Shown in pieces: positions 1,129-29,096 of a stretch of DNA of 64,000 nucleotides (the first letter of the stretch is position 1; the number at the start of each line of letters is the position of its first letter). The stretch comes from Labilibacter sediminis (GTDB lineage: Bacteria > Bacteroidota > Bacteroidia > Bacteroidales > Marinilabiliaceae), in the NCBI RefSeq assembly GCF_005877885.1, contig NZ_VCHY01000004.1:1-64000 (forward strand), written 5' to 3'. Position numbers and translations under genes: made by a program. The notes under the pieces were generated by a model. That model was not told the origin of the DNA and made no database searches. It was given only the letters and a program-made list of their open reading frames with translations.

Positions 1129-1156
1129 AGTAGGGTTGTAGATGTGTAATAATGTT
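1129..1156 (+). promoter_or_regulatory. Predicted ECF-sigma promoter, copy 1
   Basis: GAGTAGGG ends at 1135, then 17 bases, then TGTT at 1153-1156. This matches the GTAGGG-N17-TGTT pattern seen at six other intergenic sites in the window. It lies about 95 bases ahead of the T9SS protein gene at 1251. It differs from the others by A instead of G before GTAGGG. Confidence 0.65.
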
Positions 1157-1250
1157 TTGTATTAAAGGACAACTATAATCAATAAAATTATTGAAGGTAT
1201 GTTGACTTTTGAAATACAAGTAATACCTATTTTTAATTTAAATAAATAAG

Positions 1251-2567
1251 ATGATGAAAATTCTACTTCTTAAAAATGTAATTAAAAGCATTTTCTTAAC
1301 TGTTGTTATTGCTTGCTTAAGTCAAACAACAATAAATGCTCAAAATTTAATCTCCAATGGAGATTTTGAACTTCATACACCCGCGGATAATACATATTCT
1401 GAATTTTCAGCAATATTTAATGATTGGGATATGGATATCACTGATAATAATAGAAATAATACCCGGGATGTAAGGTATTCTCCAGATGGAGGTATTAGTA
1501 GTTCTAAAGCAGCTATTATTTTTTCTAAAAGTGGTAACACTAAAGGAAAGCTTTGGCAAGTTGTTAATGGTATTGACAGTAGTAAAACATATGTTTATTC
1601 GGTATATATTAAGGCTGGCAATGCAGCTACAGAAGGTGAACCGTTTACATTACTTTGTAATGCACTAAATGAGGGCGTTAATAACGGGAATAAGAACATT
1701 GTTTCAAATGGTACCAGCGAATATGTAAGGTATGGATTTCCTGTAATAATAAACGCTAAATATGATGCTATTAAAGCTCAAATTCAATGTAATCCTGGAG
1801 GTGATGTCAATACTCAGTTTTATATTGATAACGCTAGTTTGGTTGAAACTTCTGAATTTGTGAATCTCGATTTTGAAGAAGGTGTTGATTATGTTTGGCG
1901 AAAAACACTTAAAGGTACAGCAAGCGTTACCAACGAAGGGGTAGAAGTAAATAGTGGAAGTAATGCTGCTAATCTTGCTATTATGGCGGATGGTGACTCA
2001 GCTCTTATTCACAATGATATACGTGTCCCTATTAGCAACGGAAAAATGTACACTGTTTCTGCAATGGCAAAAGTGTTGACTGATAATGGAGATTTAGATA
2101 GCATTAATGTAATCACCAAAACATATACTGAGGATCATGACCTTGCAAATACAACAAGAAGTAAGTATGATATTTCTGCATTATACGAAAGTTATTCTCA
2201 CACATGTATTCCTGATGTCAATGAAAAGTATATGACCATTCAAGTTTTAGCATACAGCCAAGTTGGTAATTATATAATTGATGATGTTGAAGTTGTGGAA
2301 GAAATTGCTAATTCTGTAGGGGATAAAATAGAAACGAATGATTTAAAAATTTACCCTAATCCAACTACTAATATTATCACTGTTGATTATACAAAAGGAA
2401 ATAAAGCTTCGATAAAAATATATGATACAACAGGTAAAGTTGTTGTATCAAAGGTTAATCTTCAACCTAATAATCAGGTTGATTTAAGTGCACTTTCAAA
2501 AGGAGTGTATATTGTTGAGTTAGTTACAGATGTACAAACCAGTATATCAAAGGTGATTAAAAAATAA
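1251..2567 (+). CDS. T9SS-sorted two-module carbohydrate-binding-like protein
   Basis: 438 residues. A signal peptide ends near NAQ (residue 31). Two jelly-roll-like modules follow. The first opens with NLISNGDFE, a start typical of CBM4/9-like and galactose-binding folds, and ends FYIDNASLVE. The second opens FVNLDFEEGVDYVWRK and ends YIIDDVEVVEE. The last ~75 residues (KIYPNP... to GVYIVEL...KVIKK) are a type A T9SS sorting domain, so the protein is probably exported by T9SS and surface-anchored or released. No catalytic motif is recognised; a glycan-binding role is inferred. It is a paralogue of the next gene. ATG codons at 1251 and 1254 are both possible starts. Confidence 0.8.
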   Translation: MMKILLLKNVIKSIFLTVVIACLSQTTINAQNLISNGDFELHTPADNTYSEFSAIFNDWDMDITDNNRNNTRDVRYSPDGGISSSKAAIIFSKSGNTKGKLWQVVNGIDSSKTYVYSVYIKAGNAATEGEPFTLLCNALNEGVNNGNKNIVSNGTSEYVRYGFPVIINAKYDAIKAQIQCNPGGDVNTQFYIDNASLVETSEFVNLDFEEGVDYVWRKTLKGTASVTNEGVEVNSGSNAANLAIMADGDSALIHNDIRVPISNGKMYTVSAMAKVLTDNGDLDSINVITKTYTEDHDLANTTRSKYDISALYESYSHTCIPDVNEKYMTIQVLAYSQVGNYIIDDVEVVEEIANSVGDKIETNDLKIYPNPTTNIITVDYTKGNKASIKIYDTTGKVVVSKVNLQPNNQVDLSALSKGVYIVELVTDVQTSISKVIKK

Positions 2568-2591
2568 TTTTACGATTTCAATTTTATATTC

Positions 2592-2613
2592 AAAAGCCCC
2601 GTTTGGGGCTTTT
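2592..2613 (+). terminator. Rho-independent-type terminator
   Basis: Stem AAAAGCCCC, loop GTTT, then GGGGCTTTT, placed 25 bases after the stop of the first T9SS gene. It is almost the same as the terminator after its paralogue, which fits duplication of the whole unit. Confidence 0.85.
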
Positions 2614-2836
2614 CGTGTTTTAAGTAGGAATATTTTAGTGTATAGTTAGGTAAAGACCAAACTTTCATATTCTCGTCGTTCTGTCTATGAAATGCATCTT
2701 CTTAAGTTTTCATTGTAAAAATTTAAAAAGAGTATTTATTAAAAAAGGATTGTGTGCATTGTAATATTTTAAAATTTACCTGTTGGTTCATAATGAGGTA
2801 TTAGTTAAATAAAATATTAAAATATGTAAAAAAAAA

Positions 2837-2864
2837 GGTAGGGTTGTTAAAAGTTTTTTGTGTT
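2837..2864 (+). promoter_or_regulatory. Predicted ECF-sigma promoter, copy 2
   Basis: GGTAGGG at 2837-2843, 17 bases, TGTT at 2861-2864, about 98 bases ahead of the start at 2962. Similarity to the site at 4602 extends upstream as an A-rich tract (AATATTAAAA...GTAAAAAA), suggesting duplicated promoters. Confidence 0.75.
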
Positions 2865-2961
2865 TAATAATTATAGAATGATCTAACGGATTGAGTTTTA
2901 TTTCGTAAAGGCCATTCTTTTATCAAATTGATTAAAATAATTTAAAAATTAAACACTAGTT

Positions 2962-4329
2962 ATGAAAAACAGAATTCTACCAGTAGCTATTTTAAAGCAG
3001 GTATTTCGCTTGCTTATTGTTTCCGTATTATTTGCTAGTTCAGCAGTAACTTTAAATGCACAAAACTTATTAAAAAATGGAGGTTTTGAATCATATTCGT
3101 TTCTTGCCGGCTCCAATACTAATGTAAATTTTGATCATTGGACTTTTGATGTACCTGATGATTCAAGAAATGGTAAGCAAAATTTGCGCATAAAAACTGC
3201 ATTTGTATGCCAAGGAGAAACAACGGCAAAAGTTCTGTCAAATGGAAGTAAGGGAAAGCTTAATCAAGTAGTGACAGAAATAGATTCAGCACAAACTTAT
3301 TTGCTTTCCGTATATGTTAAGCCTGGTACAATTACAGTTGACGAAGAAGTTGTAGCAAGCTATGACAATGTAGATTTTCATTTAAAGGCAAGAGCTCAAA
3401 AAGATGGTGTTTCTATGGGGTTATGGAAAAAAGAAGTTTATACAACAAGTACTACAAGCGACCCATATATTAGATATGGCTATCCATTGTTTTTTAATGA
3501 AGATTGCAATGAAATTGATGTGCAGTTAACTTTTAATCAGGCAAGAGAATCAGATGGTACAACAAAAATTGTTGGGGAGTTTGCTGTTGATAGTGCCATG
3601 TTAGTGCCAGTAACAGAATTTATTAATTTGGATTTTGAGGAAGGAATAGATTATGTGTGGAGAAAAACTTTGACAGGTACTGCAACCTGTTCAAATGAAA
3701 CAGTTGAAATGAATGCAGGTGAAGTTGCAGCAAGGCTATCTTTAGCTGCTAACGAGGATACTGCTATCCTTAAAAACCAAATAAGAATACCTGTTACCTT
3801 TGGAATGGATTATACCATTTCTGCTATGGCTAAAACATTAATTGATAATGGAGATGCAGATAGTTTAAAAATTGTATCAAAGACTTATAATGGTGATCAC
3901 GATTTAGTAGTTTCGCAAGGCACTCGTTATGATATAAACAGCACTTTTACCAGTTACTCACATATTGCAACACCAACAGCTGATACAAAATACATGGCTT
4001 TTGAGATTGAAGTATGGAATCAGGCAGGAAATTATATTATTGATGATGTTACTGTGGTTGAGAGTATTTCTACTGATGTTAAAAATATAGCAAGTGATAA
4101 TGATTTAAGAATTTATCCTAACCCGGCCACAGATGCAATAAACATTAATTACACTAAAGGAAATAAAGCTTCATTAAAAATATTTGATACTACTGGTAAG
4201 GTTGTTGTATCAAAGGTTAATGTTCAACCTAATGATCAGGTTGAATTAAGCGGACTTTCGAACGGTGTGTATATTGTTGAGTTGGTTACAGAAATTCAAA
4301 CCAGCATTTCAAAAGTTATAAAAAAATAG
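2962..4329 (+). CDS. T9SS-sorted two-module carbohydrate-binding-like protein (paralogue)
   Basis: 455 residues with the same plan as the preceding gene: signal peptide ending NAQ, module 1 from NLLKNGGFESYSF, module 2 from FINLDFEEGIDYVWRK to YIIDDVTVVE, then a type A T9SS sorting domain (RIYPNPATDAININYTKG to KVIKK). The sorting domain is nearly identical between the two paralogues, while module 1 is much more diverged and longer here. That fits different ligands on a shared export tail. It has its own promoter and terminator and so is probably transcribed alone. No enzyme signature is seen. Confidence 0.8.
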   Translation: MKNRILPVAILKQVFRLLIVSVLFASSAVTLNAQNLLKNGGFESYSFLAGSNTNVNFDHWTFDVPDDSRNGKQNLRIKTAFVCQGETTAKVLSNGSKGKLNQVVTEIDSAQTYLLSVYVKPGTITVDEEVVASYDNVDFHLKARAQKDGVSMGLWKKEVYTTSTTSDPYIRYGYPLFFNEDCNEIDVQLTFNQARESDGTTKIVGEFAVDSAMLVPVTEFINLDFEEGIDYVWRKTLTGTATCSNETVEMNAGEVAARLSLAANEDTAILKNQIRIPVTFGMDYTISAMAKTLIDNGDADSLKIVSKTYNGDHDLVVSQGTRYDINSTFTSYSHIATPTADTKYMAFEIEVWNQAGNYIIDDVTVVESISTDVKNIASDNDLRIYPNPATDAININYTKGNKASLKIFDTTGKVVVSKVNVQPNDQVELSGLSNGVYIVELVTEIQTSISKVIKK

Positions 4330-4354
4330 TTTTAATATCTTCTTTATTATACTT

Positions 4355-4601: not shown

Positions 4602-4629
4602 GGTAGGGTAGTTAAATCTTTATTGTGTT
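4602..4629 (+). promoter_or_regulatory. Predicted ECF-sigma promoter, copy 3
   Basis: GGTAGGG at 4602-4608, 17 bases, TGTT at 4626-4629. The first susC start is about 219 bases downstream, so the predicted transcript has a long leader containing a short ORF and a hairpin. Confidence 0.75.
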
Positions 4630-4758: not shown

Positions 4759-4766
4759 AGTAGTAT

Positions 4767-4847: not shown

Positions 4848-7800
4848 ATGAAAAAAAGTCGAGTGATTATGGAAAGTAGGATGCTCAAAACCCCAAAGGT
4901 TAGAAAAAATTGGGTTCTTGCATTATTCATGTCGGCTCTAATGATTTCGATGCAGAGTGTTACATTTAATGTAAGTGCATCTAATGATACTGGAGTTGAG
5001 TATAATATGCAAGACGGTAAAACAATTACAGGTGTTGTTCAGGACACGCAAGGTTTACCTCTTCCTGGTGTTACCGTTATGGTAAAGGGAACAAATATTG
5101 GTAATATAACAGATGTAAATGGTCAGTTTTCTATTGTGGTTCCTGAAGGGAAAGAAGTGTTGGTGTTTTCTTTTATTGGTATGAAGACCAAAGAGATAAC
5201 TTTAGCAGCAAAAACTCATTTAAAAATTATTTTAAAAGAAGAGTCGATTGGTCTTAACGAGGTAATTGCTGTGGGGTATGGTTCTCAGCGTAAATCAGAT
5301 TTAACAGGAGCTGTTGCTCGTATCGACCAAGATTTATTTGAAAACTCAGTTAAAACAAATGTTGCTGAAGGATTAAAAGGGTTAGCTTCAGGGGTACATG
5401 TAACGCAAGCATCTGCTCAGCCAGGTGGTGGTATGAATATTCGTATTCGTGGTATCTCTTCAATTAATGCCAGTTCACAACCGTTGTATGTTGTTGATGG
5501 TGTACCTATTGATAACACAGGTGAAAATACAGATGCTGGTGATGGACCTACAATCGATCCTTTATCGAATATTAATTCAGACGATATTGAATCCATTGAT
5601 ATATTAAAAGATGCATCAGCAACTGCTATTTATGGAGCAAGAGGATCCAATGGAGTTGTTATTGTAACTACCAAAAGAGGTAAAGAAGGTAAGGCAAGAT
5701 TATCAATTAATGTTTCTTCCGGAGTTCAAACTGTAGCAAAGAAGTTAGAAATGCTGGATGCACAAGAGTTCTTGCGCATGAAAAACCTGGCGGCTTATAA
5801 CGATAGTGTCTCAAATCCTACGGAAGATCCTATCAATTATTATTCAGAGGGTTATATTGATTCTGCAAGAACAGTGAACTGGCAGGATGAAATATTCCGA
5901 ACCAGTACTTTCCATAATGCTCAGGCTTCGTTATCCGGAGGTGAGAATGGTACGGCGTATTTTCTTTCTTTAGGAAATACCATTAATAATGGAGTTATTG
6001 AAAACTCAAAATTTGAAAGAACTTCCTTAAGAGTTAACCTAAGTAAAAAGATAAATAAAAAGCTCGAAATAGGTCAAAATTTAAGTTTTAGTTATATCGA
6101 ATCTGATGTTATTAGAACAGAAACTGATAATATGTCAGGACCGGCAGCTAGTGTTATCTTTTCAGCACTAAGGTATTCTCCTGTACGTGGAGACTCATTT
6201 GATGCAGATGGAAATTTTGTTGGCGATGGTGATAATGCAAACCTTGACAGTCCGGATGCTTTAGTTAACGACGTTACTAATGTAGTTGAAAAACAAAGGT
6301 TAAATGGTAATATTTATCTATCCTATAAATTACTACCTAAACTTACCTTTAAAACAACACTGGGGTACGATTTTTCAAATAGTGTAGGTAGTCTGTATTC
6401 TCCGCGTACAACGCGTAAAGGAAGAGAACTTAATGGTATTGCAAAAATCAGTATCAAGAGAAATAAGCGTATAACAAGTGCTACTTCATTACGTTACTCT
6501 CCTAATATTGGAAAAAACAACAAACTAAATATTTTAGGAGTATATGAGGTCAATCAAAATGAATACAATAGTAATTTTCAGGAAGGAACTGGCTTTTTTA
6601 CAGACGCACTAAGAGAGCATAATATTCAAATGGCTGAAAATCCTGGAACTCCGATTAATAGTAAAAGAGAAACAGCCTTAATTTCTTACTTATCCAGAGT
6701 TAACTATTCGTATAAAGGAAAATATCTTTTAACTGCTTCAGGCCGTTACGATGGATCTTCTCAGTTAACTAAAAACAGATGGGCCTTTTTCCCTTCTGCA
6801 TCAGTTGCCTGGAGGATATCTCAGGAAAGCTTTTTAAAGAATGTGGAGGCACTTTCTAATTTAAAATTACGTGTTAGTTATGGTGTTGCGGGTAATCAGG
6901 ATATTCCATCGTACTCAACCTTTTCAACATATTCAACTAATTATTACGCTTTTGGTGAAGATGGAGGAAGTACTGCTATTGGAGCACACCAATCCTCTTT
7001 ACATAATCCAGACTTGAAGTGGGAAATTAAAAAGCAATTAAACTTAGGTGTTGATTTTGGATTGATTAATGGACGTATATCAGGTTCTGTAGAGTACTAT
7101 AATGATAGAACAGACGACCTTCTTTTTCAACGAGATGTTGCAACCAGTTCAGGATTTAATAATACTTGGGTAAACCTGGGAGCTATTGAAAATACAGGTT
7201 GGGAATTTGCAATTACTACATTTAATATTGAGCAAAGTAACTTTAGGTGGAAAACATCTTTTAACTTGTCTATCCCTCGTAACAAGGTATTAGATTTAGG
7301 AGGTGATGACAATATAAGAGTTGGACTTTCTACTACAAGTATTAAGAATTCTCAAATTCTTCAGGTTGGTAAACCTTTAGGACAGTTCTGGGGCTATGTT
7401 ATTGATGGCATCGCTAAGCCGGGGCAAAATGGTCAGCCTGATGATGATGTATCATTAACTTATAGTGGTAATCAGTTTGGGGATTATTTAAGAAGAGATA
7501 TTAGCGGTCCTGATGGAGTACCTGATGGAGTTATTGATGATTACGATAAAGTAATAATAGGTAATGCATTCCCTAAGTTTTATGGAAGTATATCTAATAC
7601 ATTTACCTACAAGAATTTAGAATTATCATTCTTGTTTACAGGTAATTATGGTAATGATATTATGAATGTAAATAAGGTAAAAATTGAGTGGTCGAAGATG
7701 TCAGGAAACCAGCTGGCTACAATATTGGATGCATACGATCCGGTAACAAATCCTAATGGTGAAATTCGTCAGGTAAGAGCCAATACTTATGGAACTATTG

Positions 7801-8072
7801 GTGAAGATACTGATACCCGCTTAATTGAAGACGGATCATACTTAAGGTTAGATAATGTGGTGTTGAGTTATAGAATGCCATTCCTTAAAAAGATTAATAT
7901 ACATAATGCTGTATTTTCATTTACGGCTACAAACTTGTTTGTATTAACTAATTACTCAGGATTTGATCCGGAAGTTGATGCCAGATCTTCAGGCGCTTCC
8001 ATTATTGGTCACGACCAATTTGGTTATCCTAAAAACAGGTCTTACTTGTTAGGGTTAAGATTTGATATTTAA
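4848..8072 (+). CDS. susC: SusC-family TonB-dependent outer-membrane transporter (pair 1)
   Basis: 1074 residues. A long N-terminal stretch precedes a hydrophobic signal segment (about 21-42). A carboxypeptidase-regulatory-like domain follows (ITGVVQDTQGLPLPGVTVMVKG, about 60-135), then a TonB-dependent plug with VDGVPI and SIDILKDASATAIYGARGS, then a long beta-barrel ending in an aromatic-rich C-terminus (LLGLRFDI). There is no STN domain, so it is probably a pure importer of oligosaccharides rather than a signalling receptor. It is followed after 18 bases by its SusD partner. The start at 4848 keeps a 20-residue extension; an in-frame ATG at 4869 is an alternative. Confidence 0.95.
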   Translation: MKKSRVIMESRMLKTPKVRKNWVLALFMSALMISMQSVTFNVSASNDTGVEYNMQDGKTITGVVQDTQGLPLPGVTVMVKGTNIGNITDVNGQFSIVVPEGKEVLVFSFIGMKTKEITLAAKTHLKIILKEESIGLNEVIAVGYGSQRKSDLTGAVARIDQDLFENSVKTNVAEGLKGLASGVHVTQASAQPGGGMNIRIRGISSINASSQPLYVVDGVPIDNTGENTDAGDGPTIDPLSNINSDDIESIDILKDASATAIYGARGSNGVVIVTTKRGKEGKARLSINVSSGVQTVAKKLEMLDAQEFLRMKNLAAYNDSVSNPTEDPINYYSEGYIDSARTVNWQDEIFRTSTFHNAQASLSGGENGTAYFLSLGNTINNGVIENSKFERTSLRVNLSKKINKKLEIGQNLSFSYIESDVIRTETDNMSGPAASVIFSALRYSPVRGDSFDADGNFVGDGDNANLDSPDALVNDVTNVVEKQRLNGNIYLSYKLLPKLTFKTTLGYDFSNSVGSLYSPRTTRKGRELNGIAKISIKRNKRITSATSLRYSPNIGKNNKLNILGVYEVNQNEYNSNFQEGTGFFTDALREHNIQMAENPGTPINSKRETALISYLSRVNYSYKGKYLLTASGRYDGSSQLTKNRWAFFPSASVAWRISQESFLKNVEALSNLKLRVSYGVAGNQDIPSYSTFSTYSTNYYAFGEDGGSTAIGAHQSSLHNPDLKWEIKKQLNLGVDFGLINGRISGSVEYYNDRTDDLLFQRDVATSSGFNNTWVNLGAIENTGWEFAITTFNIEQSNFRWKTSFNLSIPRNKVLDLGGDDNIRVGLSTTSIKNSQILQVGKPLGQFWGYVIDGIAKPGQNGQPDDDVSLTYSGNQFGDYLRRDISGPDGVPDGVIDDYDKVIIGNAFPKFYGSISNTFTYKNLELSFLFTGNYGNDIMNVNKVKIEWSKMSGNQLATILDAYDPVTNPNGEIRQVRANTYGTIGEDTDTRLIEDGSYLRLDNVVLSYRMPFLKKINIHNAVFSFTATNLFVLTNYSGFDPEVDARSSGASIIGHDQFGYPKNRSYLLGLRFDI

Positions 8073-8090: not shown

Positions 8091-9644
8091 ATGAATAAGG
8101 TAAAACAAATTATATATGCAGTTGTGTTAGGTTTTGTTTTTACAAGCTGTCACGACTTACTAGATGTAGAAGCATATTCCAAATTAACAGATGATAACTT
8201 CTGGCAAAATGCAGATGATATTGAAGCAGGTGTTAATGGGGTATATGATGTACTGGGAGATAAAAATGCAGGACTATATAATAAAGATCTCTTGTTATTA
8301 AATATTCTTTCAACAGATGAGTCTTATACAACAAGAAACGGAGGAGAAAAACAGATTTCCCAATTCTTATATACACCTGCAACTTCATATTTAAATAATT
8401 TATGGAAAGGTTCTTATAAATTAATCAATAGAGCTAATGTTGTAATAAACAGTGTTCAGGATTTAGACTCAACAAAAGTTAGTTTTGATGAAAAAAGAAG
8501 ATACTTAGGAGAAGTTAAATTTCTAAGAGCATTGAGTTATTTTAATCTGGTGCGTAACTATAATAATGTTCCTTTAAAATTAAAGCCAAGTGAGGGTATG
8601 GAAAGCACTCATGTTCCGGTTGCTGAAGTAGAGGATATTTATGAAGTAATTTTACAAGATCTTGATTCTGCTATTGTTGGTTTACCTGATCATTTTGGTG
8701 GAGGTGATTTAGGACGTGCAGATAAAGCTGCGGCAATTGCTTTAAAAGCAAAAGTCTATTTAACTATGGCAGGCTATCCATTGCTTGGAGGAGATAATGG
8801 TACAACGGATGAGTATCAAAATGCTTTAGATTTAGCGAAAGAACTTATTGATAATGCAGCCACTTATAGTCTTGGTTTATGGGATAATTATTCAGATGCA
8901 TATACATTGGAGAATGATAATGGTAAGGAAGATATATTTTGTGTACAGTTTAGTTCTACAGTTGGTTTATCTCCATCGTTCGAAGGTAGCTTAATTCATA
9001 AGGAGTGTTTTAAAGGAAAAACCATTAATGGATTCAAATACGATGGAAAGTTAACTTATCGTCCTTCTACATATCTTATAAAAGCATTTGAAAAGAATGA
9101 CACCCGGGCAGCTATGATTAGTCCAAAGTATACTGTAAATGGAGATGAATATTCTGCAGGAAATAAAAACCCTATGTTTACAAAGTGGTTGGATCAGAAT
9201 ATTTTGGATAATCAGCTTAATGCTCAGGTGAGTGATCAGGAATTTAAAGTGTTCAGGTTTGCTGAGATTTATTTAATTGCGGCTGAGGCAGAAAACGAGT
9301 TAAATGGTCCGGAAAATGCCTATCAGTATATTAATGTAATTAGAGCAAGAGCAAGGGAGCTTGATGAGTCAGGGAACCCTATTGAAGGAGCTGTACCAGA
9401 TTTAGAGGGATTAACCCAGGTAGATTTTAGGGCTGCAGTATTAAATGAAAGGTTAGTTGAGCTGCATGCAGAAGCGAAAAGGTGGTATGATTTGGTTCGT
9501 ACTCAAACATTTGATGAGCAAATATTAGCAGCTCAGGCCGCAAAATCTTCTGAATTTCCAAATCCCGCACCGGAGACCTTATTCTTCCCAATACCTTATG
9601 ATGAGTATACCGTTAATGACTCAATAGACTACGTTTATCAGTAA
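8091..9644 (+). CDS. susD: SusD-family surface glycan-binding lipoprotein (pair 1)
   Basis: 517 residues. The lipobox is FTSC with Cys at residue 20, consistent with an outer-membrane lipoprotein. SusD features seen: the N-terminal DDIEAGVNGVYDVLGD helix, an AEVKFLRAL-type helix (GEVKFLRALSYFNLVRNY), AIALKAKVYLTMAG, the C-terminal RFAEIYLIAAEAENEL, and NERLVELHAEAKRWYDLVRT. It forms the substrate-capturing lid on the SusC just upstream (18-base gap). A strong hairpin follows, ending the unit. Confidence 0.95.
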   Translation: MNKVKQIIYAVVLGFVFTSCHDLLDVEAYSKLTDDNFWQNADDIEAGVNGVYDVLGDKNAGLYNKDLLLLNILSTDESYTTRNGGEKQISQFLYTPATSYLNNLWKGSYKLINRANVVINSVQDLDSTKVSFDEKRRYLGEVKFLRALSYFNLVRNYNNVPLKLKPSEGMESTHVPVAEVEDIYEVILQDLDSAIVGLPDHFGGGDLGRADKAAAIALKAKVYLTMAGYPLLGGDNGTTDEYQNALDLAKELIDNAATYSLGLWDNYSDAYTLENDNGKEDIFCVQFSSTVGLSPSFEGSLIHKECFKGKTINGFKYDGKLTYRPSTYLIKAFEKNDTRAAMISPKYTVNGDEYSAGNKNPMFTKWLDQNILDNQLNAQVSDQEFKVFRFAEIYLIAAEAENELNGPENAYQYINVIRARARELDESGNPIEGAVPDLEGLTQVDFRAAVLNERLVELHAEAKRWYDLVRTQTFDEQILAAQAAKSSEFPNPAPETLFFPIPYDEYTVNDSIDYVYQ

Positions 9645-10056: not shown

Positions 10057-10064
10057 TAGATTTG
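10057..10064 (+). promoter_or_regulatory. Possible housekeeping -7 element for the sigma gene
   Basis: TAGATTTG matches the Bacteroidetes primary-sigma -7 consensus TANNTTTG and lies 28 bases before the ATG at 10092. A clear -33 TTTG at the usual spacing is not seen. No GTAGGG-N17-TGTT site precedes the sigma gene itself. Confidence 0.3.
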
Positions 10065-10091
10065 TTCAACTAAAATGAATGTTACGTGGGT

Positions 10092-10700
10092 ATGCAGCAA
10101 TCAGATGGGCAGTTGTTGGTTGGAATCAAAAGAGATGATTCTCAGAGTTTTGAGCTTTTGTTTCGGAGATATTTTCCGCGACTAAAAGCAATTAGCTATA
10201 GCTTTGTTAAAGATGATAGTATTGCAAAAGATATTGTCCAGGAAGTATTTATAAAAGTTTGGGAAAAACGTTCTGAAATTAAAGATATTGCTATCGAATC
10301 ATTCTTATTTAAAATGGTTCGGAATCAATGCCTAAATTACCTTCGTCATGTAAAAGTGGTTGATAATAGAGTGGGAGGATTAAAGGATGCCACTCAAATG
10401 GAAGAGCTTTATCGCATCGATATAATTAAAGATGAACCATATCTTTTAATTGAAAAAGAGTTAGAACAAGAGATTGTTAGTGTTTTAAATGAGCTTCCCG
10501 AAAAGTGCAGAGAGGTTTTTAAACTTAGTAGAATTGATGGATTAATGAATTCAGAAATAGCTGAAAAATTAGATGTATCAATTAAAAACGTTGAAAAGCA
10601 CATGACAAAAGCGTTAAAACATTTTAGAGAGCATTTTAAAGATCGTTTACCTGTTCAAATAATTATACTTGTGCTTCTTAACTATTTTGATAAGCTCTAG
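10092..10700 (+). CDS. ECF (FecI-like) RNA polymerase sigma factor
   Basis: About 202 residues from the ATG at 10092; a GTG at 10086 is in frame but adds only two residues. Region 2 is FELLFRRYFPRLKAISYSF through DIVQEVFIKVWEKR. Region 4 is LNELPEKCREVFKLSRIDG with the helix-turn-helix SEIAEKLDVSIKNVEKHM. The C-terminus is hydrophobic (QIIILVLLNYF), common in Bacteroidota sigma-70 family 1 proteins. It sits 93 bases upstream of its FecR-type anti-sigma and an STN-bearing SusC, the standard trans-envelope glycan-sensing arrangement. I infer that it recognises the GTAGGG-N17-TGTT promoters found at seven sites in this window. Confidence 0.93.
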   Translation: MQQSDGQLLVGIKRDDSQSFELLFRRYFPRLKAISYSFVKDDSIAKDIVQEVFIKVWEKRSEIKDIAIESFLFKMVRNQCLNYLRHVKVVDNRVGGLKDATQMEELYRIDIIKDEPYLLIEKELEQEIVSVLNELPEKCREVFKLSRIDGLMNSEIAEKLDVSIKNVEKHMTKALKHFREHFKDRLPVQIIILVLLNYFDKL

Positions 10701-16818: not shown

Positions 16819-16846
16819 GGTAGGGTTCAACCTGTGTGGTGTTGTT
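16819..16846 (+). promoter_or_regulatory. Predicted ECF-sigma promoter, copy 5
   Basis: GGTAGGG at 16819-16825, 17 bases, TGTT at 16843-16846, 43 bases before the GH92 start at 16889. Confidence 0.72.
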
Positions 16847-16888: not shown

Positions 16889-19216
16889 ATGAAGAAAAAT
16901 TTAATGTACCTGCTTGCAGGCTTTGTATTTCAAGGATGTTTGGCAGGAGAACCGGAAAAACGACCTGTAGACTATATAAACCCTATTATAGGAGCTAGTA
17001 CAAGTAACGAAATCGGAGGAAGTACACATGGCTTAGGAAAAACATTTCCGGGAGCAGCTACCCCTTTTGGAATGGTTCAGCTTAGTCCTGACACTAGAAC
17101 AGGAGATGATACGGGACCAGGATACTCTTGGCATCATACAACCATTGAAGGATTTAGTTTTGTCCATATGAGTGGAATAGGTTGGTTTGGAGATTTTGGA
17201 AATTTCCTGGTGATGCCAACTACCGGAGATTTAAAAACAGCTAAAGGTTCAGATGAAAATCCTGAATTGGGCTATCGCTCACGTTTTAGAAACGAAACAG
17301 AAGTGGCAAAAGCAGGATATTACTCTGTATTTTTAGATGACTATAAAATTAAAGCAGAATTAACAGCAGCCCCAAAGGCCGGTTTTATTCGTTTTACTTA
17401 TCCTAAAAACAAAACATCTCGTATTCAAATTGATTTATCTCGCCGAATTGGAGGAACCTCAACAGAGCAATATGTAGAGTTTGTTGATGACCATACCATT
17501 AAGGGTTGGATGAAATGCCCGCCAGAAGGAGGTGGTTGGGGTAATGGTAAAGGTAAGTCAGATTATACGGTTTATTTTTACTGCCAATTCTCAAAACCAT
17601 TAAAGAATACAGGAGTATGGAGCGTTGATGTTCCGGAAGGTATGGTGCGCCTGCGTGATGAAGTGGCCGGAAAAGAATTTCAGGATTTGGTAGCTAAAGC
17701 TAAGGTTGATCGTAATGTTAAAAAGAAACAAGGAAAACATTTAGGTGTGTTCTTGGAGTTTAAGACTAAAGAGGGTGAAGAAGTATTGTTACGCAACGGT
17801 ATTTCATTTGTAAGCATGGAAGGTGCGCAAAAGAACCTGGAAAGCAATATTGATCACTGGAACTTTGATCAAACACGAAAAGAAGCAGAACAGCTTTGGG
17901 CCAATACCTTAAACAAAATTCAGGTTGAAGGTGGAACAGATGATGATAAAATTGTATTTAATACAGCTATGTACCACTCTTTTATCGATCCTCGTGAAGT
18001 AAATGATGTTGATGGTAACTACTTTGGCATAGATAAAAAAGTACACCAGTTAGATGGATTTAAGTATCGTTCTATCTTTAGTGGATGGGATGTATTTCGT
18101 AGTCAGTTTCCTTTAATGACCTTAATTGATCCGAGCTTGGTTAATGATGAAATAAATTCGTTAATGCAAATGGCTGAGTTTAGTGGTCGTGAATACTATC
18201 CTCGTTGGGAAATCATGAATTCTTATTCAGGATGTATGCTTGGTAATCCTGCCGTATCAGTTTTAGCTGATGCTTATGCAAAGGGAATCCGTAATTATGA
18301 TATTGAGAAGGCTTATAAATATGCCAAAAATAGTGTAGAAGTTTTTGGTAATGGTGAAAAAGGATATACTTCTAAATCAGCTACTAATCCAAAAATTAAG
18401 TCGGTATCTCATACTTTAGAGTATGCGTATTTCGAATGGTGTGTATCAGAGATGGCCAAACAGCTTAATAAAGAAGATGATGCTACGTTGTATTTCGAAA
18501 GAAGTAAGAGCTACAAAAATATTTGGAATGATGAAGTAAAGTGGTTTAGAGGTCGCGATGTAGATGGTTCCTGGTTTAAATGGAAAGGTAAAACTAAACA
18601 TGGTCAGGGATGTAAAGAAAGTAACCCATATCAGCAAGGATGGTTCGTTCCTCACGATGTAGAAGGTCACATTGAATTAATGGGAGCTGAATTATTTGAA
18701 AAGGAGCTTATTAAGTTCTTCGAAAAAGTGCCGGAGGATTTTATGTGGAACGATTATTACAATCATGCCAATGAGCCTGTTCACCATGTTCCGTTTTACT
18801 TTAACCTGATTAAAAAACCTTGGTTAACGCAAAAATGGACCCGTATTATTTGCGAAAGGGCTTATGGTACAGATGTTTTAGGGTTAGTAGGAAATGAAGA
18901 TGTTGGTCAGATGTCAGCATGGTACATTATGTCTGCAATGGGATTTCATCCGGTTTGTCCTGGCGATACCAAATATCAGATTACAAGTCCGGTATTTAAC
19001 AAAATCACTATTCCGTTGGATGAGAAATATTATGGTGGAGGAAGCTTTACGGTTATAGCCAACAACAATTCCAAAGAGAACATCTACATACAATCAGCCA
19101 AATTAAATGGTAAGCCAATGAATCGCAGCTGGATAGATCATAAAGAAATTGTAGCAGGTGGTGAATTGTACTTAGAAATGGGACCTGAACCAAATAAAAG
19201 TTGGGGAATAGAGTAA
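16889..19216 (+). CDS. GH92 alpha-mannosidase lipoprotein
   Basis: 775 residues. The signal carries a lipobox (FQGC, Cys 17), so it is probably membrane-anchored. GH92 marks: VDYINPIIGAS at the N-terminus, TFPGAATPFGMVQLSPD, SGIGWFGDFGNFLVMP, GWDVFRSQFPL, CKESNPYQQGWFVPHD with the predicted acid Glu at about 577, HANEPVHHVPFYF, and GNEDVGQMSAWYIMSAMGFH with the predicted base Asp at about 671. Known GH92 enzymes are calcium-dependent exo-alpha-mannosidases acting on N-glycans or alpha-mannans; linkage cannot be read from sequence. It forms a unit with the sulfatase 83 bases downstream. Confidence 0.94.
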   Translation: MKKNLMYLLAGFVFQGCLAGEPEKRPVDYINPIIGASTSNEIGGSTHGLGKTFPGAATPFGMVQLSPDTRTGDDTGPGYSWHHTTIEGFSFVHMSGIGWFGDFGNFLVMPTTGDLKTAKGSDENPELGYRSRFRNETEVAKAGYYSVFLDDYKIKAELTAAPKAGFIRFTYPKNKTSRIQIDLSRRIGGTSTEQYVEFVDDHTIKGWMKCPPEGGGWGNGKGKSDYTVYFYCQFSKPLKNTGVWSVDVPEGMVRLRDEVAGKEFQDLVAKAKVDRNVKKKQGKHLGVFLEFKTKEGEEVLLRNGISFVSMEGAQKNLESNIDHWNFDQTRKEAEQLWANTLNKIQVEGGTDDDKIVFNTAMYHSFIDPREVNDVDGNYFGIDKKVHQLDGFKYRSIFSGWDVFRSQFPLMTLIDPSLVNDEINSLMQMAEFSGREYYPRWEIMNSYSGCMLGNPAVSVLADAYAKGIRNYDIEKAYKYAKNSVEVFGNGEKGYTSKSATNPKIKSVSHTLEYAYFEWCVSEMAKQLNKEDDATLYFERSKSYKNIWNDEVKWFRGRDVDGSWFKWKGKTKHGQGCKESNPYQQGWFVPHDVEGHIELMGAELFEKELIKFFEKVPEDFMWNDYYNHANEPVHHVPFYFNLIKKPWLTQKWTRIICERAYGTDVLGLVGNEDVGQMSAWYIMSAMGFHPVCPGDTKYQITSPVFNKITIPLDEKYYGGGSFTVIANNNSKENIYIQSAKLNGKPMNRSWIDHKEIVAGGELYLEMGPEPNKSWGIE

Positions 19217-19299
19217 TTTCAACCAGCCAGAGGATTTTGAGGTAAATCATAATTCCCGAAGAAAAATAGACAATCTAAAAGTTTACGATAGAAACAGTC

Positions 19300-20787
19300 A
19301 TGGTAAAAAAAGTAATAACAATATTAATAAGTGCACTTCCTTTGCTGTCGTGTGCCACAGAAAAAAAAGCACCTGAAAAAAAACCAAATATCATTATTTT
19401 ATTAGCAGATGATATGGGTTATGGAGACATTAGTGCTTTAAACGAAAATACCGATCTTAAAACTCCATATTTAGATGGATTTGCTCAACAAAGTGTGGTG
19501 TTTTCTGATGCTCATACTCCGTCATCTGTTTGTACTCCTACAAGGTATGGCTTACTTACCGGCCGTTATTGTTGGCGAACAAGATTAAAAAAAGGAGTAT
19601 TGCGAGGCTATGATGAGCCGTTGATTGAAGATGATAGAACAACCATAGCAAGTGTGTTGAAACAACAGGGATATACGACAGGTATTATTGGTAAATGGCA
19701 TTTAGGGCTTGGGTTTCAGAAAGATGAAGCTAAGAGTACTAAAAAGAAAAAAGCGTATGATATCACCAAGACCTTAAAGACTACACCAAATAATAATGGT
19801 TTTGATTATTCATATGTATTACCGGCATCTCTCGATTTTGCACCGTATGTGTATGTGAAAAACAAAAATGTGGTTGACACTAACTTTATCGAAGTTAAAC
19901 ATACTGATTTTCCAATTCTTAGAAGAAAAGGTTTGACATCAGAAAGCTTTGAGTTTCAAGGGGTGTTAGATAACTTTTTAGCAGAGGCCAAAACTTTTAT
20001 TCGTAAAGAGACACAAAAGGATAATCCGTTCTTCCTGTATTTTCCATTTACAGCGCCGCATACACCATTATTGCCTACTGAACAGTTTAAAGGAAAATCA
20101 GGTAAAGGTATTTATGGCGATTTTATTCAGCAAGTAGATTGGACAGCCGGCCAAGTGCTTAATTTATTAGATGAATTAGGAATTGCTGAAAATACAATTG
20201 TAATTTACACAAGCGATAATGGATCTCCAATGGCGAGAGTTGATGGTAGTTCAGATCCTGATCATATTACTTATGATTCCATTCAGCATTATAATGCTGA
20301 AAATCATCAATCAAACCATATTTTCAGTGGTATTAAAGGAGATGTATTAGAAGGAGGGCACAGAGTTCCGTTTATGGTTAGATGGCCTAAAGAACTTATA
20401 CCTTCAAAAGTAGAAGGTTCTGCTATCTGTTTAACTGATGTTATTACAACTATTGCAGATATAGTAGATGCTGAAATTCCTGCCGGAGCCGCTGAAGATA
20501 GCTATAGTTTTTATGCTTTGCTAAAAGGAAAAGAGCAGGCAGAACGTCCGGCCATCATTCATCACTCAGGTAAAGGTATGTTTGCGCTTCGTAAAGGAGA
20601 TTGGAAATATATTTTAGGAGACGGATCTGGTGCCAGAACCGAACCTGTTGGAAAACCTTTTGGTGAGCCATTTCAACTTTATAATTTAAAAAGTGATATT
20701 ACAGAGAAAAACAATTTGCTAAATGATAACCAAGATGTTGTAAGTGAAATGCAAAATGCTTTTGATGTTATTAAAGGAGATGACTAA
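19300..20787 (+). CDS. S1-family sulfatase (CTPTR)
   Basis: 495 residues. Lipobox LLSC (Cys 18), so probably a lipoprotein. The metal-binding ADDMGYGD is at about 36-43. The formylglycine motif is C-T-P-T-R with the modified Cys at 78, followed by YGLLTGRYCWR. GKWHLG at about 130 and VIYTSDNG near 300 complete the core. The YGLxTGRYCWR signature is shared with the sulfatases at 61413 and 63004, implying one subfamily. It follows a GH92 mannosidase in the same predicted sigma-controlled unit, suggesting that it removes sulfate blocking mannose residues; exact specificity is unknown. Confidence 0.93.
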   Translation: MVKKVITILISALPLLSCATEKKAPEKKPNIIILLADDMGYGDISALNENTDLKTPYLDGFAQQSVVFSDAHTPSSVCTPTRYGLLTGRYCWRTRLKKGVLRGYDEPLIEDDRTTIASVLKQQGYTTGIIGKWHLGLGFQKDEAKSTKKKKAYDITKTLKTTPNNNGFDYSYVLPASLDFAPYVYVKNKNVVDTNFIEVKHTDFPILRRKGLTSESFEFQGVLDNFLAEAKTFIRKETQKDNPFFLYFPFTAPHTPLLPTEQFKGKSGKGIYGDFIQQVDWTAGQVLNLLDELGIAENTIVIYTSDNGSPMARVDGSSDPDHITYDSIQHYNAENHQSNHIFSGIKGDVLEGGHRVPFMVRWPKELIPSKVEGSAICLTDVITTIADIVDAEIPAGAAEDSYSFYALLKGKEQAERPAIIHHSGKGMFALRKGDWKYILGDGSGARTEPVGKPFGEPFQLYNLKSDITEKNNLLNDNQDVVSEMQNAFDVIKGDD

Positions 20788-21242: not shown

Positions 21243-21270
21243 GGTAGGGTTGCGCAGATTTAATGGTGTT
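21243..21270 (+). promoter_or_regulatory. Predicted ECF-sigma promoter, copy 6
   Basis: GGTAGGG at 21243-21249, 17 bases, TGTT at 21267-21270, 48 bases before the start at 21318. Confidence 0.75.
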
Positions 21271-21317: not shown

Positions 21318-23783
21318 ATGAAAAACAATCTACTTAAAATTTTCTACCTATTATTGATTGCATTTATAATGCTGCCATTCGTTGCTAAGGCTCAATTGGT
21401 TGTGAATGAAATGCCATTAAAAGTTGTTGAGGCCGGAGAATGGGACGAAGTGCAACGTAACAATGGAACCTCTGGTTGGATATCAGGAGATGGGCAAATG
21501 ACAATTCCAATGGATGGAGTTGATAGTATAGGCCATGCTCAGCATGTGAAAACCTTTTGGATCAATAGTGATTCTCGTTTTTGTGCAGAATTAGATCCTT
21601 TTAATTTAAGAGTAACCGATGGTCGGGCATTTATTAACCATACAGTAGCCATTATGAATCAGGTAAACCAAAATTCAGCACCAGGTTTTGAGGATATGGA
21701 CTATTGGTTTGGAGCCAACAACGATAAAGTAACCAAAGGGAACTTATTTCCAATTGGTCATGATCATGCGTGGACCATTGATGGTTGGGCTGATGGAGAT
21801 ACAGTGTACGCATTTTTGTTAGATAAGGATAAAGTAGATGGAGTGCTGAATGATGTGGGTGTACACATGGTTAAAATTCCAATTATAAAGGATGCAGATG
21901 GTGAAATTATTAATGCGGATTATTCAAATTATAAGTATGAAGAATATATCCCCTGGTTGTTAAGAGATCCCGATTTATCCGGATATACGGAACCTAAAAC
22001 TGTGATGGCTTCGTGCATACATGATAACACAGTTGAGGGTGGAGCAACATTAAATGCAGATGGTTATATTTATAACTATGGTGTTAGAAAGTTAAAAACC
22101 AGCAGAAATGTTGTTTTAAGTCGCGTATTAAGAGAGAATTTTACCAACTGGGATGCATACGAATATTGGAACCATGAAACACAAACCTGGACAAATGATT
22201 CGGATGTTTTGTGGGATGGCAGAGGTAATATTGTTAACAGAGTTGGAGGAATATTTAGTATTACACCTATTACAACAGGGGTTTATAAGGGTAAATATTT
22301 GTTAGTTACTATCCGTAAACAAGATGATCCGGCTATCGCCTATCGTATTGGAGAATCGTTAACGGGGCCCTTTAGCGATGAATATGTTGCTTATGGAGCA
22401 TTAAAAGAAATGGATGCATACGGAACTCGCGATGTAAATTTTTACAATGGTAAGGCACATCCACATATCTCAAATCCGGGCGAACTTTTAATTTCTTATA
22501 GTGCCAACCGGAAAGAGACAACATTAACTACAGATAAAAACAGAGTACGTTTTATCAAATTAAAGCTTGATGAATTAGCTGAAGAAGCTCCATTATTTAT
22601 TGTATCGGAAGGAGCAGGAAATAATACTTCAGCCTCCGGTTATACAAGTACATCAACAAAACCGAATAAAGGCTTTGATAAAAATTGTGAAGATAAAAAT
22701 AAGTGGGTTGACGATACTCCTGGAGATAAATGGCTTGCAGTAGATTTGGAGCGTGCATTTTATGTTGAGCGCTGGCAAGTAATCCACGAAGAAGAAATAT
22801 ATCCTGCAGAATCGGGAGATCCATTAAAAAATACCAGAGATTTTAAGCTTCAGGTAAGTGATGATGAAATAAATTGGACAACCGTTGATGAAGTAATTGG
22901 GAACACTAATGGATTTACAGAAAGAGATATTCCGGAAACAGAAGGACGGTATTGGAGACTGTACATTACTAACCCAAGTCAGGATGGTACGGATGTAGCC
23001 AATATTGTGAATTTTAACTTAATCGGTAGGGTTTTGCCAACTGGTAAAAAGGTTGATACTGTTAATATGGCTTCAGGTAAAGATGTGATAGTAAGTTCAG
23101 GAACAAGTGCATCTTATATTTTAGATGAAGAATACGATACTAAATGGAGTGTTGATGCAGCTGACGGACAACAGTGGTTTTCTGTAGATTTAGGAGAAGA
23201 AAAGGATATATATCGTTGGTGTTTAAGAACAGCCGGAATTGCTGGGGAGCCTAATGCCAAAAATATATTTGATTTTGATGTATTGGTAAGTAATGATGCA
23301 GAAAACTGGGTTGAAGTAAACACTATTCGAAATAATATTCGCGAATCGATTAGAGGCTATGTAGGCTATAAAGCACGCCATATTAAAGTAAAGGTTATTA
23401 CACCAACTTTAGCCACCGATCCCGAGGTTAGTATTAATGAGCTTGAAGTATATAGTGGAACAGGAGCTACTATGAAACAAATTGAAGTTACCTCTAACCT
23501 AAATGACATAGAGAGCATTAGTAGGGGATTAACAGTATATCAAAATAACCCGAACCCATTTAAAATAAATACCTCCATTGCTTTTAAAATACAGGAGTCG
23601 ATGCTGGTTAATGTTTCATTATTTGATGTAAGTGGTAAGCTGGTAAAAGTATTACAAAACGAATTTTTAATTCCGGGTGATCATAAGGTTCAATTAAATG
23701 GATCTCAACTTCATTCAGGAATTTATTTTTATACTATTAGCACACCTAAAGCAAAAGTAACCAAAAGATTAGTTAAACTTTAG
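21318..23783 (+). CDS. Large T9SS-sorted protein: propeller-like N-terminus plus two discoidin domains
   Basis: 821 residues with a signal peptide ending KAQ (26). Residues about 27-420 form an unassigned domain with repeated DxxG/W-rich strands (DYWFGANNDKV, IGHDHAWTIDGWADGD, GVYKGKYLLVTIRKQDDPAI, PHISNPGELLISYSA). It resembles the beta-propeller DUF5005/GH43-like group, but I cannot place it firmly. Two F5/8-type-C (discoidin) modules follow (about 430-575 and 580-715, the latter with WFSVDLGEEKDIYRW). A T9SS sorting domain ends the protein (VYQNNPNPFKINTSIAFKI to KRLVKL). It has its own predicted sigma promoter. It may be a surface glycan-binding protein or an uncharacterised glycosidase. 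Confidence 0.75.
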   Translation: MKNNLLKIFYLLLIAFIMLPFVAKAQLVVNEMPLKVVEAGEWDEVQRNNGTSGWISGDGQMTIPMDGVDSIGHAQHVKTFWINSDSRFCAELDPFNLRVTDGRAFINHTVAIMNQVNQNSAPGFEDMDYWFGANNDKVTKGNLFPIGHDHAWTIDGWADGDTVYAFLLDKDKVDGVLNDVGVHMVKIPIIKDADGEIINADYSNYKYEEYIPWLLRDPDLSGYTEPKTVMASCIHDNTVEGGATLNADGYIYNYGVRKLKTSRNVVLSRVLRENFTNWDAYEYWNHETQTWTNDSDVLWDGRGNIVNRVGGIFSITPITTGVYKGKYLLVTIRKQDDPAIAYRIGESLTGPFSDEYVAYGALKEMDAYGTRDVNFYNGKAHPHISNPGELLISYSANRKETTLTTDKNRVRFIKLKLDELAEEAPLFIVSEGAGNNTSASGYTSTSTKPNKGFDKNCEDKNKWVDDTPGDKWLAVDLERAFYVERWQVIHEEEIYPAESGDPLKNTRDFKLQVSDDEINWTTVDEVIGNTNGFTERDIPETEGRYWRLYITNPSQDGTDVANIVNFNLIGRVLPTGKKVDTVNMASGKDVIVSSGTSASYILDEEYDTKWSVDAADGQQWFSVDLGEEKDIYRWCLRTAGIAGEPNAKNIFDFDVLVSNDAENWVEVNTIRNNIRESIRGYVGYKARHIKVKVITPTLATDPEVSINELEVYSGTGATMKQIEVTSNLNDIESISRGLTVYQNNPNPFKINTSIAFKIQESMLVNVSLFDVSGKLVKVLQNEFLIPGDHKVQLNGSQLHSGIYFYTISTPKAKVTKRLVKL

Positions 23784-23825
23784 CTTAATCAATATTCCAA
23801 ATCTGATTGTGTTTTTTATTATTTC

Positions 23826-23866
23826 CACTAGACAAGTTTTAGTTTTTACTTGTCTAGTGTTTTTCT
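23826..23866. terminator. Bidirectional terminator between convergent genes
   Basis: An 11 bp perfect stem, CACTAGACAAG (23826-23836) with CTTGTCTAGTG (23849-23859), followed by TTTTTC on the plus strand. It separates the T9SS gene from the convergent AlkC-like gene. Confidence 0.85.
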
Positions 23867-23887
23867 TCTTTCACTATAGTTTTAGCT

Positions 23888-24991
23888 TCAAAATTTTAAG
23901 GTAAAATCAGACTTATCCAGTTCTTTACCATTAACAATTAAGGAAACCTGATGAAGTCCTTCATGAAACTTTCGTGTAGAAATAGGCTTAAAAGCTTGTT
24001 TTCTAATCAACGCTGTTTGCGAGTTGGCAGTATAATTCTTTTCACTGATTTTATATACTTTTTTACTCAAACTGCCATTTGCCTTTTGATAATAAATAGC
24101 ATATTCAAGGCGAATTAATACTTCTTCATCAGCTTTATTATTTACCTTGAAACTAAACGACAGATGATCACCAAAGCTTATCTGAGGAGTTACTAACTTA
24201 AAATCATCAATGCTTATATGTTCAAGATTACCATAGCCAAACATTGCTAAGGCTTTTGAATTTCCCTGTTTTAGTAAAGTTCTGAAAGCATGTTTTACAA
24301 TCCAATCAGTATTTTTTGACTTCCCCATCCATCTTTTACCAAGCTCAAGTACCAAATCCGGATGATCTTTTGAAATATCGTTGAGATTATTTGCGACACT
24401 TTTTCTCACAAACTCCGATTCATCATCTTTTAAATTTTCAAGAATGGGAAGTATTGGAGACGGATCTTTTTTTAATTCTGGCAGAGCCATGGCCCAGGGT
24501 AATCTCGACCTGCAACCTTCAGATGAAAAGCGCCTGATATTTTGATGAGGATGTATTGACCATTTTAACATTTGCTCCATCATTTGTTCCGGGTACTTAA
24601 TAATGAATGGACGAACAGCAAATTCGCAACTGGTAAACTGTGTTATTCTTTCCATTGCCTTAATTGAAATATCTAAATGATTGATTCCGAATTGTTCAAT
24701 AAAATTGGGTAGAAACATATAAACAAAAGACATCTCAGAACTATGTTCTTCAGCTTTATCCGTTAAAGACAATATGATATCAACGGCTTCTTTATATTTT
24801 TTTGGCAGTTGTTTACTAATAACCATTGAAATGTGCTGCATTCGTTCCTTCAATTCCAGACTATGCCAATGGTGATTAAAAACTCCTTTTACAAATGATT
24901 CTTTATTAAATCCATCAATTAAATCCTCAATTATTGTACTTAAATGTTCAATAAATTCCTTATTAAACATGTTTTTTAATGCTTCTGCCAT
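23888..24991 (-). CDS. alkC: AlkC-like DNA alkylation-repair glycosylase
   Basis: 367 residues on the minus strand. The first ~265 residues are alpha-helical HEAT-like repeats: MAEALKNMFNKEFIEHLS at the start, SSEGCRSRLPWAMALPELKKD, and ESEFVRKSVANNLNDISKDHPDLVL with WIVKHAFRTLLKQGN. The C-terminal ~100 residues are beta-rich (PQISFGDHLSFSFKVNNK to SLIVNGKELDKSDF), matching the immunoglobulin-like domain that distinguishes AlkC from AlkD. The family excises N3-alkylpurines without base flipping. It is unrelated to glycan use and sits between two blocks of the locus, next to a palindromic repeat. Confidence 0.8.
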   Translation of the reverse strand: MAEALKNMFNKEFIEHLSTIIEDLIDGFNKESFVKGVFNHHWHSLELKERMQHISMVISKQLPKKYKEAVDIILSLTDKAEEHSSEMSFVYMFLPNFIEQFGINHLDISIKAMERITQFTSCEFAVRPFIIKYPEQMMEQMLKWSIHPHQNIRRFSSEGCRSRLPWAMALPELKKDPSPILPILENLKDDESEFVRKSVANNLNDISKDHPDLVLELGKRWMGKSKNTDWIVKHAFRTLLKQGNSKALAMFGYGNLEHISIDDFKLVTPQISFGDHLSFSFKVNNKADEEVLIRLEYAIYYQKANGSLSKKVYKISEKNYTANSQTALIRKQAFKPISTRKFHEGLHQVSLIVNGKELDKSDFTLKF

Positions 24992-25068
24992 CCTATGTTT
25001 TTTTTACCTGGGTTTAAGCAGCATCTAAAATAAGAAAGAATTCCAATACACTTTTGGCTATTCTGTTT

Positions 25069-25243
25069 TTAACCCGCTTTATGCATTAGAAAATCTATTA
25101 CACATTGAAATCACTTCAAAACAAGACACTTTGTTGCTTCACTTCAACTCACCAGAACGATGCTATGCCTCATTTCAGTAAAGCATTGTTTTATCATGCT
25201 TTCAATGTTCATGACGAAGTTCTAATACTTAATGCGGGTTTAA
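25069..25243 (-). repeat. ~175 bp palindromic intergenic repeat, copy 2 (inverted)
   Basis: It begins AACCCGCTTTATGCATTAG and ends AATGCGGGTTTAA. Read on the minus strand it matches copy 1 (9753-9928) with only a few differences. It lies between the AlkC-like gene and the next predicted sigma promoter. Confidence 0.85.
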
Positions 25244-25265
25244 CCGGATAAAAAATAAAATTAAA

Positions 25266-25293
25266 GGTAGGGGAAGGTAAGCGTTATCGTGTT
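25266..25293 (+). promoter_or_regulatory. Predicted ECF-sigma promoter, copy 7
   Basis: GGTAGGG at 25266-25272, 17 bases, TGTT at 25290-25293, 45 bases before the sulfatase start at 25338. It would drive the long sulfatase/GH92 operon. Confidence 0.75.
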
Positions 25294-29094: not shown

Positions 29095-29096
29095 AA

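Follow-up and report, generated by a model that had tools for sequence, protein, structure and literature searches.

GTAGGG-N17-TGTT, a candidate promoter of a FecI-type ECF sigma factor with a putative glycan regulon in Labilibacter sediminis

Which regulator reads a two-part motif that recurs at one fixed spacing in front of the glycan genes of a Labilibacter sediminis contig? The stretch analyzed here, called the window, comprises 64,000 nucleotides at the start of contig NZ_VCHY01000004.1 (C311 below), in a genome of 6.36 Mb and 372 contigs. An earlier note on this DNA had pointed to seven copies of GTAGGG followed after exactly 17 bases by TGTT (GTAGGG-N17-TGTT), and had read them as promoters of a candidate regulon governed by the extracytoplasmic function (ECF) sigma factor encoded among the same genes. 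The seven sites hold up, and reading them as ECF promoters is very probably correct: from sequence analysis, we put at about 0.88 the probability that GTAGGG-N17-TGTT is a promoter read by the FecI-type ECF sigma factor encoded at 10086-10700, with an expanded regulon.

Seven sites of one spacing in the window

The exact motif occurs seven times in the window, always on the plus strand, whereas 100 dinucleotide shuffles give an expectation of 0.09 (largest count, 2), and GTAGGG by itself is present in 21 copies. When the gap between GTAGGG and TGTT was varied from N10 to N25 on the plus strand, N17 gave seven matches, N14 two (one of them the site at 16820 read with a shorter gap), N25 one and every other spacing none, and the minus strand of the window held no match at any of these spacings. 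GGTAGGG is found at six of the seven sites, as first counted, and a G directly precedes TGTT at five. In site order, the sites end 95, 98, 219, 23, 43, 48 and 45 bases before a gene start on the coding strand, in keeping with the 23-220 bases given in the earlier note, whose coordinates for the sites were all correct.

Profile matches to the window proteins upheld the assignment of the sites to genes, all of which lie on the plus strand. The candidate ECF promoters at 1130-1156 (AGTAGGG-N17-TGTT) and 2838-2864 (GGTAGGG-N17-TGTT) precede genes for two proteins with type IX secretion system (T9SS) tails, a secreted protein (1251-2567) and a protein with a sub-threshold CBM_4_9 match (2962-4329). 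The candidate at 4603-4629 lies upstream of the second SusC/SusD set of the cluster (SusC 1 and SusD 1 by position), a SusC/RagA transporter with no STN match (4848-8072) and a SusD-like lipoprotein (8091-9644). The candidate at 10745-10771 ends 23 bases before the ATG of an anti-sigma gene (10794-11792; FecR and FecR_C domains, both over cut-off) and falls, as claimed, in the gap between this gene and the adjacent sigma gene. Downstream are genes for a SusC/RagA TonB-dependent transporter (11889-15239), whose N-terminal STN signalling domain is sub-threshold (E = 2e-5, but 24.7 bits against a curated 28.4), and a SusD-like lipoprotein (15236-16747). The candidates at 16820-16846, 21244-21270 and 25267-25293 precede, respectively, glycoside hydrolase family 92 (GH92) and sulfatase genes (16889-20787, the sulfatase from 19300), a gene for a protein with DUF4185, F5/8C and a T9SS tail (21318-23783), and a run of sulfatase, GH92, sulfatase, sulfatase and sulfatase genes (25338-33789).

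The sigma gene itself (plus strand) starts at GTG 10086 or, more likely, at ATG 10092; its product matches Pfam Sigma70_r2 and r4_2 and scores 164.9 bits against the Bacteroides expansion family TIGR02985 (Sig70_bacteroi1; cut-off, 126.4). No exact GTAGGG-N17-TGTT site serves this gene. Upstream of it on the plus strand, TAGATTTG at 10057-10064 fits the −7 box TAnnTTTG of sigma-A promoters and is probably its housekeeping promoter.

To the right of 25293 the window has no exact site, and the reported lack of the intact motif in the right half holds. The part from 36780 to 64000, where ORFs (open reading frames) before 53526 were scanned, holds two fucosidases, sulfatases and a T9SS-tailed protein without the exact motif; a hybrid two-component regulator is encoded in the right half, on the minus strand at 49125-53177.

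Placement across the genome and targets outside the window

Genome-wide, with the reversed pattern as control and intergenic status taken from mechanically called ORFs, the exact motif has 19 matches, seven of them in the window. The control has 14, and the raw count shows no excess by itself. What sets the motif apart is placement: 17 of the 19 matches are intergenic versus 2 of the 14 control matches (Fisher p = 3e-5), and the matches outside the window alone differ from the control as well (10 of 12 intergenic, Fisher p = 1e-3), so that the genome scan suggested in the earlier note came out in favor of its proposal. For 16 of the 19, an ORF starts on the coding strand within 260 bases (15 if a 143-amino acid (aa) ORF on contig C351 is no gene). 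With the gap left free from N12 to N22, N17 accounts for 19 matches, including the 16820 site that is also readable as N14, and the other spacings for 3-10 each.

The 16 well-placed sites bear on two readings in which the motif is no promoter. A dimeric or two-domain regulator, such as an activator or repressor of the AraC type acting on housekeeping promoters, could be suited to a pair of short boxes spaced by about two turns of the helix, and one of the sites stands in front of an AraC gene of C311 (258.9 kb). However, the boxes are not symmetric, and 8 of the 16 sites end within 49 bases of the ORF start, which leaves little room for a separate promoter. The absence of TAnnTTTG from 100 bases upstream to 130 bases downstream of 15 of the 16 sites points the same way, weakly, as few such boxes would be expected anyway. 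We regard a regulator site of this kind as quite improbable. A dispersed repeat or RNA leader element is hardly credible. It is true that a repeat containing GTAGGG is present in 15 copies in the genome, but its window copy (GTAGGG at position 155) lacks N17-TGTT, and the spacer of the 16 sites is almost unconserved, with 0.0-0.4 bits per column against 0.8 for the G before TGTT.

This repeat, built around AAGGAAGTAGGGTATGGGACAAAGTCCCATTCTTAAG (window 149-185) with a GGGAC/GTCCC palindrome, was counted at up to three mismatches; its copies also lie on C2, C45, C56 (three places, one at each end), C66, C155, C231, C251, C325, C351 and C362 and at C311:375117. The break in the assembly at the window start may be due to it.

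Read as an ECF promoter, the motif defines a regulon larger than claimed: the seven window units stand, about nine well-placed sites lie outside the window, and the motif is part of a wider promoter class, described below. Four of the outside sites fall within 10 kb on C56. Downstream of them lie a gene whose 612-aa product matches no Pfam family, a run of sulfatase, sulfatase and GH92 genes, a DUF4185-F5/8C-T9SS gene that reads as a single frame over a boundary of sequence pieces, and a gene for a T9SS-tailed sulfatase. The sites at C66:45961 and C362:55872 precede genes for two esterases of the SASA family, 980 and 292 aa long, that at C111:69865 a TonB-dependent receptor gene and then a 500-aa ORF, and that at C311:258945 the AraC gene and a TonB-dependent receptor gene. 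Most of these targets belong to the enzyme classes of the window; the SASA and AraC genes do not. The ends of C56 and C311 share two 77-base matches (100% and 98.7%), and C56 may adjoin C311 across the multi-copy repeat, although this adjacency is unproven because the linking repeat occurs at 15 places.

Sigma/anti-sigma gaps of relatives

We sought the closest sigma factors in 71 genomes of the family, the own genome included. In the closest (55-56% identical; G018, G030 and G013), the gap between the sigma and anti-sigma genes holds GGGGGG-N17-CGTT; the same gap holds GATGGG-N16/17-TGT(A/T) in relatives at 46-48% identity and TGCGGG-N17-TGTA in those at 38-39%. Position and geometry are kept across the relatives while the letters of the boxes change, and the window site whose position is conserved is that at 10745-10771.

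A broader set consisted of 85 sigma/anti-sigma pairs from 80 named loci, 20 fetched regions and the window (one step used 84 of the 85). De novo expectation-maximization on the 75 pairs with enough upstream DNA returned an ATAGGGG-like box, a gap of 14-15 bases by block edges and nTGTATT, with the window site included and a log-likelihood of 149.6 versus 51.8 for shuffled sequence. A reverse-complement null for this procedure was dropped, since two blocks of equal width find the same motif again and score above the forward run. A further 60 loci were fetched after the pattern had been seen, and the pattern GGG-N15-17-nGTn was itself chosen after part of the data had been seen. Among the 133 of 140 pairs verified by FecR (in the others, the next ORF is not FecR-like), 43 carry it in the expected place, versus 2.8 after shuffling. 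It is present in 21 of the 60 loci fetched later and in 44 of all 140 anti-sigma upstream regions (4.1 after shuffling; largest, 10), where the spacing peaks at N16 (23) and N17 (21), with 1-9 matches at the other spacings from N10 to N24.

Loci of Parabacteroides goldsteinii (L106), P. acidifaciens (L120), P. gordonii (L121) and P. distasonis (L137) combine an ATAGGGG-type −35 box with a TGTATT that lies 20-25 bases ahead of the anti-sigma gene, and two loci from Parabacteroides metagenome-assembled genomes (L119 and L139) look alike. A second class, CACCC-N15-CGTCTTA, occurs mainly in Flavobacteriaceae loci; it is very uniform in L086, L092, L096, L112 and L126, where TCACCC-N-CGTCTTA lies 20-36 bases before the anti-sigma start, and others are similar. 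Curiously, TCACCC read on the opposite strand is GGGTGA, which makes this −35 box a mirror image of the GGG class.

When the two promoter classes were mapped onto a quick maximum-likelihood tree of the 56 site-bearing sigmas, 3 changes sufficed (minimum of 7 in 300 shuffles); for the −35 triplet inside the GGG class, the number was 16 (minimum of 22 in 300 shuffles). Single placements are unsure because the tree carries long-branch warnings. Among the 43 GGG-class sigmas, the GTA triplet accompanies 17 of the 19 whose region-4 helix begins with S[VI]K and none of the other 24 (p = 4e-10, for a pattern picked after looking; p = 0.001 for the S alone). Sigmas of the GGGGGG group have N[VI]K instead. 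The association is not significant once kinship is counted, as the tree offers only 4-5 independent pairs, and for this reason we put forward the link between S[VI]K and GTA as a hypothesis. Tentatively, and at slightly less than even odds, the FecI-type sigmas of Bacteroidota may share one code, consisting of a clade-specific −35 triplet, an invariant GGG, a gap of 16 or 17 bases and nGT(A/T), located some 20 bases ahead of the anti-sigma start, in which the region-4 helix would read the triplet and most sigmas would serve one promoter, the window sigma serving a genome-wide glycan regulon.

These comparisons also bear on whether one or more other ECF sigmas of the genome read a real promoter of which the local sigma is one reader, a reading that overlaps the one we favor. 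The genome holds 18 sigma-like matches, partly overlapping ECF regulons are described for other bacteria (PMC9723704), and a second pair of this genome (L191; G000, C88) has GTAGGA-N16-TGTT close before its anti-sigma gene, by which cross-talk with the window motif is possible. Yet the C88 site departs from the motif in one letter and has a spacing shorter by one base, the site between the window sigma and anti-sigma genes is the exact motif, and in relatives the motif changes together with the orthologous sigma, all of which makes other readers unlikely. The AraC-type regulator considered above is likewise disfavored by the equivalent sites, which stand directly ahead of the anti-sigma gene, next to the cognate sigma, and vary in step with the sigma tree.

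The reading of the motif as the promoter of the window sigma is thus supported by genome-wide placement, by spacing and, most strongly, by the footprint between the sigma and anti-sigma genes of relatives. As in ECF promoters, the boxes lie on the coding strand with a constant separation of about 16-17 bases, and the site of the sigma's own operon changes with the sigma. The motif, its placement, the conserved architecture and the match to the sigma phylogeny are directly supported.

In the same loci, TAnnTTTG lies within 60 bases of the start of 42 of 122 sigma genes (6.3 after shuffling; largest, 15) and of 3 of 140 anti-sigma genes, which suggests that in many pairs a housekeeping promoter drives the sigma gene, and that control by the sigma is confined to the anti-sigma/SusC/SusD operon. 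The window fits this layout, with a housekeeping box for the sigma gene and a sigma-type promoter for the anti-sigma gene.

The relatives' own boxes gave a measure of regulon size. GGGGGG-N16-GCGTT, sought in six genomes, has one match each in G018, G030 and G013, at the sigma/anti-sigma gap, none in G009 and G020, and two in the own genome, elsewhere. GTAGGG-N16-TGTATT, sought in eight genomes, has one match at the gap in four, one elsewhere in another, and none in three, the own genome included. Among 20 box sets of relatives, searched with up to two mismatches in the DNA available, 13 recovered only their own site and 2 one extra site; the other 5 missed their own site, through boxes, spacing or ORF masking, and are uninformative. 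The window's own-box search recovers all seven sites. About 16 well-placed sites here versus one in most relatives point to an expanded regulon of the window sigma, although, with a single site behind each consensus, degenerate targets in the relatives could go unnoticed.

Several observations weigh against the reading of the motif as the promoter of the window sigma. One-mismatch matches show no excess genome-wide (74 versus 100 for the control), so that the regulon is not extended past the exact matches and its edge is blurred. Three of the 19 exact matches are badly placed (C1, C110 and C199), and for a further one, the ninth outside site, the only gene candidate downstream is the doubtful 143-aa ORF on C351. 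If C56 adjoins C311, its four sites may be part of one longer cluster and not truly unlinked. In each of the 12 relatives scanned, exact matches to the window motif are fewer than those to the reversed control, so that its letters are not conserved beyond the lineage of the window sigma; such scarcity fits letters specific to this sigma. Nor is the layout universal: 13 of the 133 FecR-verified pairs have the ACCC-N-CGT class (0.9 after shuffling) and 77 have neither of the patterns searched. Finally, GGG-N-nGTn is also upstream of 21 of the 122 sigma genes, a count taken without a shuffled control, and some sigmas may be self-activated.

A putative circuit and its relation to known systems

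In the circuit that we propose, the housekeeping promoter would supply a basal amount of sigma factor, which the FecR-type anti-sigma factor would retain at the inner membrane. Uptake of a glycan by the SusC-like transporter at 11889 would send a signal to the anti-sigma factor and free the sigma. With the freed sigma, RNA polymerase would transcribe the anti-sigma/SusC/SusD operon, giving negative feedback plus more receptor, along with six more transcription units of the cluster and about nine elsewhere, including sulfatase/GH92 genes, a DUF4185 T9SS gene and genes for two SASA esterases, a TonB-dependent receptor and an AraC regulator. We infer the start sites, the dependence on the sigma and these signalling steps. 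From the enzymes, our guess is that the inducer would be a sulfated, acetylated, mannose-containing glycan.

Glycan loci of Bacteroidota contain numerous ECF sigma/anti-sigma pairs. Bacteroides thetaiotaomicron has 26 linked to sugar genes, and ECF promoter prediction was called challenging in 2013, needing start-site data (PMC3878776); no motif was known for the ECFs of this species in 2020 (PMC7366714). Promoters of its SigW-1, which control SusC/D and sulfatases, are described with TGTT near −10, and a −30/−10 motif is tied to ECF sigmas (PMC12596196). The statement in the earlier note that no consensus of this form had been described therefore stands for the −35 box, of which no GTAGGG-type example was found, and falls for TGTT, already reported at −10 for this B. 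thetaiotaomicron ECF sigma. Neither a GTAGGG-type −35 box nor a FecI-type Bacteroidota consensus turned up in our literature search, which left out the papers on EcfO, Dma1 and ECF reclassification, and the available parts of PMC11697453, PMC10766802 and PMC13088901 contain no ECF promoter consensus.

One close likeness is to SigW-1 (BT1817) and the non-canonical PM2 motif (PMC12596196, PMC7366714), with TGTT near −10, boxes at about −30 and −10, and SusC/D and sulfatase targets distant from the sigma gene; the window sites contain TGTT by definition, and the same box positions and kind of targets are predicted for them. By contrast, the available account of SigW-1, compared by text only, spells out no GTAGGG-type −35 box and its motif was not significant there. 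PM2, compared by description only, is said to be nearly palindromic and is associated with oxidative stress, and SigW-1 is assigned to ECF251 and is distant from its polysaccharide utilization locus, whereas the window sigma adjoins FecR and SusC. With the FecI/FecR-type pairs of glycan loci (TIGR02985), the window has in common the order sigma, FecR anti-sigma and SusC/SusD and a score above the cut-off; it differs in having about 16 promoter copies, compared with one in most relatives tested. Motif SM6 of Flavobacterium psychrophilum (PMC9723704) is similar in its ECF-type −10 box and in having one anti-sigma/sigma pair and T9SS genes among its targets, but its box is CGT rather than TGTT, the targets are T9SS machinery, not T9SS cargo, and the available account states no −35 box. 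The Bacteroidota sigma-A promoter (TTTG / TAnnTTTG) is probably used by the window sigma gene, with its one −7-like box, and is otherwise unlike the motif-bearing sites, 15 of 16 of which lack a TAnnTTTG box nearby. What appears to be new is the sigma-specific spelling of the −35 box within a shared layout, plus the size of the regulon.

Reading the sigma/anti-sigma gap yields a consensus for about a third of the pairs analyzed (43 of 133), by which their regulons may become predictable from sequence, and Parabacteroides distasonis (L137), P. goldsteinii (L106) and P. gordonii (L121) are culturable species for a test. In L. sediminis, the sulfated-glycan regulon of a surface-sensing sigma factor appears to span a cluster and sites elsewhere in the genome, and promoters of this kind may become predictable.

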